A DNA stretch of 8,948 nucleotides from Desulfuromonas sp. SDB. GTDB lineage: Bacteria > SDB-A. The stretch covers positions 1 through 8,948 of the forward strand of contig LKUE01000344.1 in assembly GCA_001412365.1 (NCBI GenBank), written 5' to 3'. Below are positions 5,835-8,948 of this stretch, piece after piece (position 1 is the stretch's first letter; every line of letters starts with the position of its first letter). The notes below the pieces were generated by a model. It worked only from the letters and a program-made list of their open reading frames with translations. It ran no database searches and was not told the DNA's origin. Made by a program: the position numbers and the translations under genes.

Positions 5835-5853
5835 ATAAATAAATTTAAATATT

Positions 5854-6066
5854 CTATTTTTTGTGGTCAGGGGAAATTTTATGTTCAGCGAATCCTATAA
5901 CTGCCACCGCCAAGGCAATTAACAGTAAAATTCCATTAGCTTTTAATATTTTACCGCCTTTGCCTATTTCATCACTTAGTAAAACTGAAAAAGAATAAAA
6001 TAAATCAATAATTCCAATTATAATTAAGGCAGCCCAGTAAGTTTTATTAATAACTCCCCCTTGATC
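5854..6066 (-). pseudogene. Small two-helix membrane protein ORF without a canonical start codon
   Basis: Read on the minus strand, the frame is open from 6066 to a TAG stop at 5854-5856 and reads like real protein. It has a hydrophobic segment TYWAALIIIGIIDLFY, a charged loop with SDEIGKGGK, a second hydrophobic segment GILLLIALAVAVIGF, and a polar tail ending ISPDHKK. There is no ATG, GTG or TTG early in this frame. A near-perfect Shine-Dalgarno GGGGGAG (complement of 6054-6060) lies just upstream. The sequence after it, TTATTAATAAAAC, would give an ideally spaced ATG AAA ACT TAC with a single added G, so a one-base loss at the start codon, or a sequencing error, would explain it. An ATT start at 6051 is possible but sits only two bases from the Shine-Dalgarno. 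I do not recognise a family. It converges on the GT4 gene with a 19-base gap. Confidence 0.5.
6054..6060 (-). promoter_or_regulatory. Strong orphan Shine-Dalgarno sequence
   Basis: The minus strand carries GGGGGAG here, stronger than the ribosome binding sites of most + strand genes in the window. It sits directly before the start-less small membrane ORF and supports the view that a gene was, or is, translated from about 6045 leftward. Confidence 0.5.
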
Positions 6067-6263
6067 TCATCAATGGAGTAACCTTTGCCAATCCCTCTAT
6101 TGCAGGATGTTTTAATATAATTGAAAATTGATACTTGTTTAAATAATCAACTGAATATAAAGTTAAAACAGCAGTACAAATCATCAACTGAGTTTACAAC
6201 GGCATGATAATATTCACAAATATTAGTTAAACAGATGTAAATGGAAATATTTCAGGAAATAGG
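6067..6263. other. AT-rich spacer with no supported gene
   Basis: This is the remainder of the 429-base gap between the GT4 gene and the 71-residue membrane protein gene. Short open frames exist on the minus strand, for example complement 6047-6184 (45 residues), and another that reads GIGKGYSIDEIKGELL near 6055-6105. None has a ribosome binding site or a recognisable family. They could be the remains of a gene upstream of the small membrane ORF. A 7-bp AT-only inverted repeat lies at 6208-6225. I could not identify a convincing -35/-10 pair for the downstream gene. Confidence 0.5.
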
Positions 6264-6479
6264 ATGATTGAATTTTTCAGTTGTTCGGTAATAATTAGCG
6301 TTTTAGTGTTGATAGTAGTGGTTATTTATCTGCTGCTCAGAGTAATTGACAATGTAAAAAATCAGAATAAACTTGATTTTCGAAGATCCCCTAAAAATCC
6401 TAAGTACAATGAAAAAATAGATAAAATTATTGATAAAGCAGAAGAAGCTGAATTTGAAGAGTATGATGATAAAAGATAA
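6264..6479 (+). CDS. Small single-span membrane protein with charged tail, unknown function
   Basis: This is a 71-residue protein. Residues about 5-26 (FSCSVIISVLVLIVVVIYLLL) form one strongly hydrophobic helix; the rest is hydrophilic, first basic (RVIDNVKNQNK, RRSPKNPK), then mixed and acidic (EEAEFEEYDDKR), predicted helical from about 48 on. By the positive-inside rule the tail should be cytoplasmic. AGGA at 6254-6257, six bases before the ATG, is a good ribosome binding site. The gene stands alone: 429 bases after the GT4 gene and 116 bases before the propeller gene, same strand. I recognise no family. It could be an accessory subunit or membrane tether, but nothing in the sequence says of what. 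Good start, ribosome binding site and composition make it likely to be a real gene. Confidence 0.65.
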   Translation: MIEFFSCSVIISVLVLIVVVIYLLLRVIDNVKNQNKLDFRRSPKNPKYNEKIDKIIDKAEEAEFEEYDDKR

Positions 6480-6582
6480 TACCTGCCCGTGTTTTCATTG
6501 TTTTTTAAGTATAGTTAAGTTATGTTCAAAATTTCAAATAAAATATGAAAATTTAAATTTCTCCGGAGTACTGTTGAGTTGA

Positions 6583-6588
6583 AAGGAG
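6583..6588 (+). promoter_or_regulatory. Consensus Shine-Dalgarno of the beta-propeller gene
   Basis: AAGGAG (within GAAAGGAG), seven bases before the ATG at 6596, is the best ribosome binding site on the + strand here. It fixes the start of the propeller gene and suggests efficient initiation independent of upstream translation. Confidence 0.75.
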
Positions 6589-6595
6589 AAAGGGC

Positions 6596-7975
6596 ATGAT
6601 AAAAATTTTTAGTTTAATTAAAAAATTTATAATTTTTATATTGACATATCATTTAAGGAATTTTTTATTTTTTTTTATAATAATAATTCCCTTTTCATTG
6701 AAAGGATTATTTTTAAGTTATATATATCCGCATTATGCCATTCAGGATCAGATACTAACTGTTTACATTCTCGGTTCTGGTTTTTTATATAATACTAAAG
6801 TGATATTTCTCGGACCAGATAGTACAACCATTGTCCCCATAGAAATAAAAGCTGATTGGAACAAAATTGAATGTAGTTTAGATTTGGGTTATTCAATTTA
6901 TGGAAATTATTCAGTGATAGTATTTAATAATAACTTTTCAGATACTATGTGGAAATGCTTCAGGATTACAAAAAAATCGTATTTTCAAGGTCAATGGGTA
7001 GAAACAATAATTGGGTTAGGTGAAGCTCCCATGCTGGATGTTGAATTAATGGATGGTGATCATGACAATTTAGTGGAAGTATATGCTGCTTGCTACGATG
7101 ATAATTTGTATCATTTTAAGTTTGAACATAGTAAATGGAATATTTCATTAACCAAGGTTAGTACATGGGGATTGAATGGAGTGGTGGGAGGAGATTTTGA
7201 TAATAATGGTTTGTATGAGATTTATGTTGCATGCAGAGATCATTGTATTTATCAGATATTCTATAGTGGATTAGCTTGGGAATTGCAGAAAGTAGGAGAA
7301 TTAACTGATGAGGTCTGGTCTTTATATACAGGAGATGGTAATAATAACGGAATTATGGAAATCTATGCCGCCTGTGAAGACAGCCAAATATATCAATTTT
7401 CTCACATTAACGGTAAATGGGAAGGTGAGGTAATTGGAATGGGATTGGATGAAATGGAATCAGTGACGGTTGGAGATGGTGATAACGACGGAAGATTAGA
7501 AGTTTATGCTGCCTGTGATGATAATTCAATTTACAGATTTCAATATTCCCAAAAGCAATGGTGTACTGAAATTATAGGTTCTGGCTCCAATCAAATGGAA
7601 GATGTTTGTATTGGAGATGGGGATAATGATGGAACTCTAGAGTTATATACAGCATGCAGGGATAGGTATGTTTACCAATTTAAATATGAAAATGGTCAAT
7701 GGAATAAAAATGATTTGGGCTGCGGACAAGACGGTATATTAAGTGTTTGCGTGGGGGATGGAAATAATGATGGATTTTCTGAAATATATGCAGTTGGATT
7801 CGATGGATTTATTTATAAGTTTGAATGTAACCGTAATTCCTGGCAGAAAGAAATTATTGGTTTTACCAATAGCTCTTTAAGAGGAATTGAAGTGGGGGAT
7901 GTAGATAATGATGGATTTAATGAAATTATAGTTTCTTCTCTTAATTCCAAAATTTACATGTATAAATTATATTAA
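6596..7975 (+). CDS. Membrane-anchored IPT/TIG domain plus seven-repeat FG-GAP/VCBS-like beta-propeller protein
   Basis: This 459-residue protein is predicted to be surface-exposed or periplasmic. Residues about 9-43 are very hydrophobic (FIIFILTY, then FLFFFIIIIPF), a signal anchor or uncleaved signal sequence; there is no lipobox. Residues about 53-124 resemble an IPT/TIG immunoglobulin-like domain: YILGSGF opening, then an IYGNYSVIVFNNN strand and a closing CFRI. From W134 to the end are seven repeats spaced exactly 47 residues apart. Each starts with Trp and contains a DxDxDG-type loop with Glu at loop position 9, then an Y-A-A-C-type strand and IYxF. In integrins and FG-GAP/VCBS proteins such loops bind calcium, and seven repeats predict a closed seven-bladed propeller. 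The ligand is unknown; carbohydrate, protein or adhesion roles are possible. Translation starts from a consensus ribosome binding site, and the gene ends at a strong hairpin. It may be a monocistronic unit or follow the small membrane protein gene. Confidence 0.85.
   Translation: MIKIFSLIKKFIIFILTYHLRNFLFFFIIIIPFSLKGLFLSYIYPHYAIQDQILTVYILGSGFLYNTKVIFLGPDSTTIVPIEIKADWNKIECSLDLGYSIYGNYSVIVFNNNFSDTMWKCFRITKKSYFQGQWVETIIGLGEAPMLDVELMDGDHDNLVEVYAACYDDNLYHFKFEHSKWNISLTKVSTWGLNGVVGGDFDNNGLYEIYVACRDHCIYQIFYSGLAWELQKVGELTDEVWSLYTGDGNNNGIMEIYAACEDSQIYQFSHINGKWEGEVIGMGLDEMESVTVGDGDNDGRLEVYAACDDNSIYRFQYSQKQWCTEIIGSGSNQMEDVCIGDGDNDGTLELYTACRDRYVYQFKYENGQWNKNDLGCGQDGILSVCVGDGNNDGFSEIYAVGFDGFIYKFECNRNSWQKEIIGFTNSSLRGIEVGDVDNDGFNEIIVSSLNSKIYMYKLY
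6995..7972 (+). repeat. Seven 47-residue (141-base) protein-coding repeats, predicted propeller blades
   Basis: Repeats start at W134, W181, W228, W275, W322, W369 and W416, that is bases 6995, 7136, 7277, 7418, 7559, 7700 and 7841; the last is 44 residues and ends the protein. The calcium-type loops begin at D153, D200, D247, D294, D341, D388 and D435, all exactly 47 apart; the position-9 Glu follows at 161, 208, 255, 302, 349, 396 and 443. Loop sequences are DGDHDN, DFDNNG, DGNNNG, DGDNDG, DGDNDG, DGNNDG and DVDNDG. There are no insertions or deletions between units. Codons differ widely between repeats even where the residues match, so this is an old, selected repeat and not a recent DNA duplication. 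Confidence 0.93.
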
Positions 7976-7980
7976 TTATT

Positions 7981-8016
7981 AAAAGGGGGTCCCCCTCAGG
8001 GGGTACTCCCCCTTTT
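7981..8016. terminator. Bidirectional intrinsic terminator with alternative G5/C5 hairpins
   Basis: AAAAGGGGG (7981-7989) pairs with CCCCCTTTT (8008-8016) around an inner CCCCC TCA GGGGG (7991-8003). AGGGGG TACT CCCCCT (7998-8013) is an alternative compact hairpin. T-rich sequence follows on both strands, so it can end the propeller transcript (+) five bases after its stop and the converging peptidase transcript (-) six bases after its stop. Confidence 0.88.
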
Positions 8017-8021
8017 AATTT

Positions 8022-8948
8022 CTATTTTACTACCCTCTCTGTCCGCACCGGCAATGTTTGAGGATAAGTGGCCAGGGTAGCTATTTCTGTGGAAATGTAA
8101 TTTACTCTTTCCTCCGGAGAAGGATGTGCTCCGTAATGGTCTCCCACTCCTTCATTTAATTTTCCAATGATATTGATCAATTCATAGGGATTGTAGCCAG
8201 TTTTAGTCATCAGATGTACTGCATAGATATCTGCAGCTTTTTCCTGATCCTGATTGTAGGCATTTTCCCATAATCCCATCATCCCATCTACGATGGTGGA
8301 AAATATTTCATCGGTAGAAGTATTGATGATCTCGTCAACAAACCAATCGGGAAGTTTGTCCAGAGCTTCCTGCGCTTTCTGCTTTGCTGCTGGTCCGCCG
8401 TATTCCTCAGCCAGTTTAATCAGAGAAATCAATCTTTGCTTGGAATCAATTGAATTTACTGCATCTTTGTGAATAACATGACCGATCTCATGAGCAAGTA
8501 TGGCTGCAATTTGATCTTCATTTTCACAAGCTTCTATCATCCCGGTGGTAATAAAGATGAAACCTCCGGGGGTGGCAATGGCGTTTTTATTAGATCCTTC
8601 CACCACAATAAAAATAAATCCGGAGAACAAATCATCTCTGTCTGCCTGTGACATCACTGCCAGGGATTGACCGATTTCATTGACGTACATGCTGAGTTGG
8701 TCATTTTCAGTGGTTTTATTTTGATATTGGTTGAGTATGTTTGCTGCACAAGTTCTTCCCAGGTAATATTCCTGTTCGGGTGTGTAACCTTCCGCAAATA
8801 CTTGTAATGCCTCATTGATATCTTGAGCAATTGCTAAATAATCACCTACCGGTCCGGGAATATCCACCGGTATATCCACCCCCACATCAGGCCAGGCGGA
8901 AAGTTGAATTACACAGATGAATATAAAAAATGATGTTGATAATAATTT
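8022..8948 (-). CDS. Secreted M48 family zinc metallopeptidase, start beyond the right edge
   Basis: This is a zinc endopeptidase of the M48 family, the group of periplasmic BepA/LoiP-type proteases and of Ste24/HtpX. HEIGH (bases 8478-8492) gives the two zinc histidines and catalytic Glu. The third ligand is in the downstream helix QDQEKAADIYAVHLM (bases about 8208-8252), E of EKAAD. HPSPEERV (about 8103-8126) is the family's conserved His-Pro segment after the core. Upstream, TPGGFIFITTGMI (about 8534-8572) is the usual edge strand. The frame stays open through 8948. Codons at 8886-8948 encode a hydrophobic stretch, FFIFICVIQLSA then WPD, which looks like a signal peptide cut near LSA/WPD. 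The GTG at 8885 is therefore inside the gene and the true start is outside the window. No lipobox is seen. At least 309 residues are present. Likely role: quality control or processing of exported proteins. It converges on the propeller gene across a shared terminator. Confidence 0.93.
   Translation of the reverse strand, partial: KLLSTSFFIFICVIQLSAWPDVGVDIPVDIPGPVGDYLAIAQDINEALQVFAEGYTPEQEYYLGRTCAANILNQYQNKTTENDQLSMYVNEIGQSLAVMSQADRDDLFSGFIFIVVEGSNKNAIATPGGFIFITTGMIEACENEDQIAAILAHEIGHVIHKDAVNSIDSKQRLISLIKLAEEYGGPAAKQKAQEALDKLPDWFVDEIINTSTDEIFSTIVDGMMGLWENAYNQDQEKAADIYAVHLMTKTGYNPYELINIIGKLNEGVGDHYGAHPSPEERVNYISTEIATLATYPQTLPVRTERVVK

Follow-up and report, generated by a model that had tools for sequence, protein, structure and literature searches.

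A predicted seven-bladed VCBS/FG-GAP propeller with evenly spaced calcium-type loops and a putative membrane anchor in Desulfuromonas sp. SDB

The stretch of DNA that we analyzed (the window; 8948 nucleotides of contig LKUE01000344.1 of Desulfuromonas sp. SDB) carries a gene for a protein in which seven units with calcium-type loops follow each other at exactly equal distances. We consider it reasonably likely that this protein is a membrane-tethered, calcium-loop, seven-bladed VCBS/FG-GAP propeller with a TIG-like spacer, and that its most likely ligand is a glycan. Under this proposal, an uncleaved N-terminal signal anchor would fix the protein in the inner membrane, its C-terminal part would extend into the periplasm, and the small TIG-like Ig domain would serve as a spacer between the anchor and the closed propeller. 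The seven D-x-[DN]-x-[DN]-G loops would lie on one rim of the disc and, judging from the motif, each could bind one metal ion, probably Ca2+, which would fix the AB hairpins. The disc would then offer a rigid, multivalent binding surface, and its likeliest ligand would be a glycan, possibly an exopolysaccharide made by the products of the adjacent Wzy/WecA-type genes.

Gene borders, repeat units and the modeled ring

The open reading frame occupies the positions first proposed for it (Table 1), and its ATG is supported as the start by a Shine-Dalgarno-like sequence directly before it. An inverted repeat with a T run that follows the stop codon is a likely terminator, marking the natural 3' end of the gene. 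The convergent gene on the other side of this repeat encodes a metallopeptidase of the M48 family (PF01435; positions 8022-8948, - strand) and runs off the end of the window.

Table 1. Features of the propeller gene and of its borders (positions in the window).
Feature	Position	Strand	Basis
Shine-Dalgarno-like AAAGGAG	6582..6588	+	sequence; 7 nt 5' of ATG
Whole open reading frame, 459 aa	6596..7975	+	
N-terminal hydrophobic region, aa 1-45, predicted uncleaved signal anchor	6596..6730	+	hydropathy, model helix (predicted)
IPT/TIG-like Ig domain, aa 42-126	6719..6973	+	homology to the domain preceding sister propellers
Propeller unit 1 (W134; loop D153-E161, DGDHDNLVE)	6995..7135	+	loop positions, model
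Propeller unit 2 (W181; loop DFDNNGLYE)	7136..7276	+	loop positions, model
Propeller unit 3 (W228; loop DGNNNGIME)	7277..7417	+	loop positions, model
Propeller unit 4 (W275; loop DGDNDGRLE)	7418..7558	+	loop positions, model
Propeller unit 5 (W322; loop DGDNDGTLE)	7559..7699	+	loop positions, model
Propeller unit 6 (W369; loop DGNNDGFSE)	7700..7840	+	loop positions, model
Propeller unit 7 (W416; loop DVDNDGFNE)	7841..7972	+	loop positions, model
Inverted repeat with T run, likely transcription terminator	7981..8016		between the convergent propeller and M48 peptidase genes

The genes 5' of the propeller gene encode a Wzy-type ligase/polymerase, a WecA-type transferase, an FAD amine-oxidase-like protein and a group 1 glycosyltransferase. 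Between the last of these and the propeller gene lie about 760 bases with a low G+C content (5835-6590) and small open reading frames only, a stretch that is unique in the genome except for one 36-base match. Because of this gap, the propeller gene may be outside the glycosyltransferase operon. One of the small frames, just 5' of the propeller gene (6264-6479), could encode 71 aa that include a single hydrophobic segment and end in a charged tail; a Pfam search with it gave no match.

The calcium-type loops begin at aa 153, 200, 247, 294, 341, 388 and 435, each interval being 47 residues, exactly as had been claimed. Their consensus is D-x-[DN]-x-[DN]-[GN]-x-x-E, with the D-x-[DN]-x-[DN] part present in 7/7 units. 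The original prediction also held that all units have a Trp start and a complete integrin-like loop. This was correct for the Trp at the unit start and for the D and E at loop positions 1 and 9 (7/7 each), but not for the G at position 6, which occurs in 6/7 units, unit 1 alone having N (DGDHDNLVE). Self-identity of the protein at a lag of 47 residues was 36.6%, versus a maximum of 12.5% at lags of 40-55 in 2000 shuffles, and the repeat is thus far beyond chance. Searching the window DNA with TRF revealed no tandem repeat, and the mean identity among the units is 34% for amino acids and 48% for DNA. The repeats are detectable at the protein level only and are old at the DNA level, which excludes a tandem repeat in the DNA or a very recent duplication. 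The claim that such regularity is unusual also held: the window array was the only one of 33 loop arrays scanned across relatives to have six equal intervals, the next best having three, in what is a small sample counting only loops that fit the strict motif.

A Cys residue also recurs at distances of 47 residues in units 1-5 (aa 166, 213, 260, 307 and 354; codons at 7091, 7232, 7373, 7514 and 7655), and is replaced by Gly in unit 6 and Ser in unit 7. These residues, each in an A-C motif after strand B, form part of a ring and would be unusual in the periplasm.

A single-sequence AlphaFold2 model of aa 125-459 (pLDDT 77, pTM 0.80) contains 28 strands, that is, seven blades of four. In this model, the first strand, around W134, comes before blade 1 and serves as the outer, N-terminal strand of blade 7, which otherwise consists of three C-terminal strands of its own; this is the layout of a ring shut by an ordinary velcro closure. 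The C-terminus lies directly behind the last strand of unit 7. The Asp-rich loops are placed between the first and second strands (A and B) of each blade, as they are in calcium-loop propellers; this agrees with their original assignment, and we regard genuine calcium loops as quite likely. A Foldseek search with the propeller model was led by the PLL/PHL lectins (TM about 0.70), which also dominated the top of the list obtained with the full-length model. VIA-align gave a Z of about 35 over model residues 7-335 versus seven-bladed WD40 propellers. The WD40 chains that head the VIA list, from whose top 50 rows PLL chains are absent, have only about 10% identity with the window protein, which indicates a shared seven-bladed fold, not kinship. 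Taken together, the 28 modeled strands, the velcro strand at W134 and the matches of both searches to seven-bladed folds bear out the predicted seven-blade closure, while an open solenoid or an incomplete ring is ruled out by the propeller model. A closed seven-bladed propeller is thus highly likely.

Kinship to the VCBS superfamily and to lectins

The window protein matches Pfam PF13517 (VCBS/FG-GAP_3) at 72.6 bits, versus a curated cut-off of 26.9 (E 4.1e-20). It is a member of the VCBS/FG-GAP superfamily by sequence and fold, and since this superfamily is large and already known, it represents a previously undescribed member and not a new kind of fold. Pereira and Lupas (2021; PMC8023676) described the VCBS supercluster as having a DxDxDG motif in loop AB, a G and a W in loop CD, which they do not regard as universal, and a GW in loop DA'. 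The window units have the DxDxDG-type loop between strands A and B and, in loop CD, W in 7/7 and G in about half; most sister units have this G. The window protein also resembles the members of this group in that they are signal-bearing prokaryotic proteins with Ig-like partner domains and with blades amplified within lineages (PMC8023676). It differs from them in the perfectly equal 47-residue spacing, and in having a single TIG-like domain and a predicted uncleaved anchor, with no secretion tail.

Among solved proteins, the nearest by sequence are PLL2 (E 1e-9) and PHL. A profile of six propellers, the window one and five from sister proteins, matched PLL2 at 1e-10, and also PLL and PLL3, and showed a weak match to a fucose lectin. 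Similarly weak sequence matches connect the window protein with the eukaryotic scaffold propellers BBS2/BBS7 and ITFG2. The PLL/PHL lectins of Photorhabdus (PDB 5C9L, 6RFZ, 5MXE), which have the best Foldseek rank, share with the window protein seven four-stranded blades, 18-20% identity and a comparable unit pattern (DGRLEVFARGTDNALWH versus DGRLEVYAACDDNSIYR). However, PLL units lack the DxDxDG loop, and PLL has neither a TIG-like domain nor an anchor, whereas the window protein has the former and is predicted to have the latter.

In PHL, fucose is contacted by W199, W214 and T194, and galactose by R91, E93 and W107 (PMC5584973). We mapped these residues onto the window units through the PLL/PHL sequence alignment. 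In the fucose site, the position of W199 is occupied by Tyr in 7/7 units, there is no Trp at the position of W214, and T194 is not conserved. In the galactose site, the Glu corresponding to E93 is kept in 7/7 units, while the Arg is found in unit 4 only and the Trp in 0/7. The fungal lectins PVL and AAL2 are also seven-bladed, contain calcium loops and are built of a VCBS-type repeat (PMC8023676, PMC4483166), but their blade is about 56 residues long versus 47 in the window unit. Their GlcNAc pocket is formed by the GW motif of loop DA' (PMC8023676, PMC4483166). No recurrent GW was found between strand D and the next A in the window units, and neither the GW/His sugar pocket that lies between the blades of PVL/AAL2 nor the GW motif of PVL/tachylectin is conserved there. 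Comparison with the CV39L lectin family (NCBIfam NF052350) gave 33.6 bits, far below the cut-off of 350. As the sugar-contacting residues of PLL/PHL and PVL/tachylectin are mostly lost, the protein is akin to lectins without passing the tests for a lectin, and a lectin role is unproven.

The propeller of alpha-integrins, like that of the window protein, has seven blades and DxDxDG-type loops. In alpha-integrins, calcium-type loops are present in a subset of blades only, whereas in the window protein they are present in all seven. The FG-GAP/Cage motif that alpha-integrins have around strands A and B was also sought, and no FG or GAP string occurs in the window protein sequence.

Sister proteins, the TIG-like domain and cellular location

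At least three longer relatives are encoded elsewhere in this genome, contig C249 (8342-15672) carrying two of them and contig C130 one. One of the C249 sisters is a 1276-aa open frame (1265 aa as an ORF) and the other has at least 1152 aa, its frame being cut by the contig end with the start probably on contig C181; the C130 sister is a 752-aa open frame. The C249 sisters contain two seven-bladed propellers per chain, and seven blades were found in 5/5 sister propellers. Their units are of variable spacing, with lengths of 41-54 residues, and the sisters have 28-33% identity to the window protein. Wherever the N-terminus is complete, the sister propellers are preceded by the same TIG-like domain. 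According to the original prediction, seven closed blades and recurring N-terminal domains would support a defined family, and both the domain and the blade number do recur in the sister proteins of this genome. Random blade numbers, which would have spoken against the prediction, did not occur among these sisters; in a more distant genome, neighboring relatives have seven and about six units (G118:C7, locus L071). In these more distant relatives the calcium loop is degenerate, reading GxGRND(G), and one of them runs on into a long coiled-coil-like stretch.

The assignment of the IPT/TIG-like domain, too, draws its support from the sister proteins and is weak on the window sequence alone. Pfam gave no match at E 0.1 with the window segment alone, and this region is of low confidence in the single-sequence full-length model. 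The segment is nevertheless homologous to the domain preceding the sister propellers, and 4/5 members of this domain group match Pfam TIG (PF01833), the best at E 0.072, which is below the cut-off. A profile search of the PDB with the domain found nothing, and its relative in another genome (L062) is not recognized as TIG by Pfam.

In all three sisters, HYDIN-type Ig domains are followed by sorting-tail-like C-termini, which match Por_Secre_tail weakly and below the cut-off (E 1.2e-4 to 0.08), and the signal peptide of the C130 sister looks cleavable, ending in a plausible small-x-small site. The window protein shares with the sisters the TIG-like domain followed by seven Trp/DxDxDG blades, and differs from them in these other three features. 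The genome also encodes SprA, a component of type IX secretion (E 5.7e-17), which was absent from 14 controls. As the genome bin is estimated to be 3.9% contaminated, the sisters could in principle stem from another organism. The C249 sisters adjoin genes for three glycosyltransferases, a polysaccharide deacetylase and a Wzi-type capsule protein, while the C130 sister adjoins a two-component regulator, with no polysaccharide locus there. On C181 (L098; 145-6872), another propeller protein begins with its TIG-like part at the contig end, just after a row of signal-bearing proteins, at least two of which share nearly identical C-termini (like RSGIYFYHLESDYITETGKFMVVR) with the C249 sisters.

A scan of genome contigs revealed a single distant relative (L009, 21%), and no further close members were found among the relatives of the genome with the next-best match. 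Phage origin was rejected, as there was no relative in viral contigs and one weak PHROG match only, and so was plasmid spread, with no match. A literature search combining type IX, FG-GAP and the candidate phylum returned no paper.

The N-terminus of the window protein is strongly hydrophobic over aa 22-43, with the best 19-residue windows starting at aa 22-25 (mean hydropathy 2.0-2.2), and forms a helix over residues 2-42 in the full-length model. Thus, the membrane anchor of the original prediction is clear as far as the hydrophobic N-terminus is concerned. No small-x-small cleavage site was seen in this region, which on its hydropathy is predicted to be an uncleaved signal anchor, and anchoring in the inner membrane is probable. 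The type IX sorting domain was also sought, and none was found in the window protein, whose chain ends at the last blade. The lack of a sorting tail and the predicted uncleaved anchor argue for retention in the inner membrane. The proposal of a cell-surface receptor or adhesin, which would reach the outside and present the disc to other cells, was therefore not upheld. It would fit the sisters, which have the same modules and probably leave the cell by type IX secretion, and it would fit VCBS propellers at large, which typically bear signals and have Ig-like partners (PMC8023676). However, the window protein has neither the sorting tail nor the HYDIN domains, and its long hydrophobic N-terminus has no cleavage site, so that a surface role is unlikely and a periplasmic, inner-membrane location appears likelier.

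Because the C-terminal half of the sisters is missing from the window protein, and the gene adjoins a low-G+C stretch with no recognizable gene directly upstream, it could also be viewed as a secreted sister that has been truncated or is decaying and has no present function. Yet the reading frame is unbroken and is flanked by a good Shine-Dalgarno sequence and, right behind the stop, a terminator, the chain ends in the model exactly at ring closure, and Trp, D1 and E9 are kept in 7/7 blades, which would not be expected in a decaying gene. We find this explanation very improbable.

Candidate ligand and origin of the equal spacing

A polysaccharide is the most economical guess for the ligand of the inner-membrane propeller that we favor, because polysaccharide genes adjoin both the window gene and the C249 sisters. 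The guess also draws on the position of sisters resembling type IX substrates in a glycosyltransferase/Wzi locus, and on the closest solved relatives being lectins. It is weakened by the lack of polysaccharide neighbors of the C130 sister and by the low-G+C gap that parts the propeller gene from the glycosyltransferase, and a glycan ligand is thus possible but tentative. Alternatively, the propeller could bind no glycan and act in the periplasm as a platform on which a protein complex docks, for instance in polymer export or outer-membrane assembly. The loss of most lectin residues would be in line with this, as would the weak sequence matches to the scaffold propellers BBS2/BBS7 and ITFG2 and the finding that propellers are mostly recognition scaffolds for varied biomolecules (PMC8023676). 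On the other hand, no partner gene was identified, and the nearest structures in Foldseek are lectins. We treat such a docking function as a serious possibility, although not as the leading one.

A more elaborate version of the glycan proposal would be a two-tier system, in which double propellers exported by type IX secretion and the single propeller in the inner membrane would both recognize the same capsule or exopolysaccharide, one on the outside and the other on the inside, guiding or anchoring the polymer during export through a calcium-dependent sugar site unlike those of PLL and PVL. We give this version little credence.

The mean score among the blades of the window propeller is 80, whereas against sister blades it is 58 and no rotation is preferred; their self-similarity is the highest of the six propellers. 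The sister pairs, in turn, align blade for blade (A1-B1, 81; A2-B2, 84.5). As the window blades resemble each other more than they resemble any sister blade, they were probably amplified or homogenized in their own lineage, after the lineages had split. Blade amplification has been described for all major propeller lineages (PMC9218822). The equal spacing would then reflect amplification or homogenization in the lineage of this gene with no later insertions or deletions, and not a novel type of fold. However, the C130 blades are nearly as self-similar (76) and their spacing is irregular, which indicates that amplification is not the whole explanation. Instead of arising by lineage-specific amplification, the 47-residue spacing might have survived by chance or have been selected because it makes the disc symmetric, the more so as a unit identity of only 34% means that no amplification was recent. 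The absence of a preferred blade rotation relative to the sisters and the top rank of the window propeller in self-similarity speak against such an origin, which is possible but less likely.

With its fold and superfamily being well known, the protein itself is unsurprising. It nonetheless provides a clean natural case of near symmetry in a seven-bladed calcium-loop propeller, one for which a single sequence suffices for folding in silico, and a handy model for the amplification of VCBS propellers and for the design of symmetric binding discs. Should the neighboring exopolysaccharide prove to be its ligand, Wzy-type polymer export would gain a recognition protein in the periplasm, in a lineage that has been little studied.
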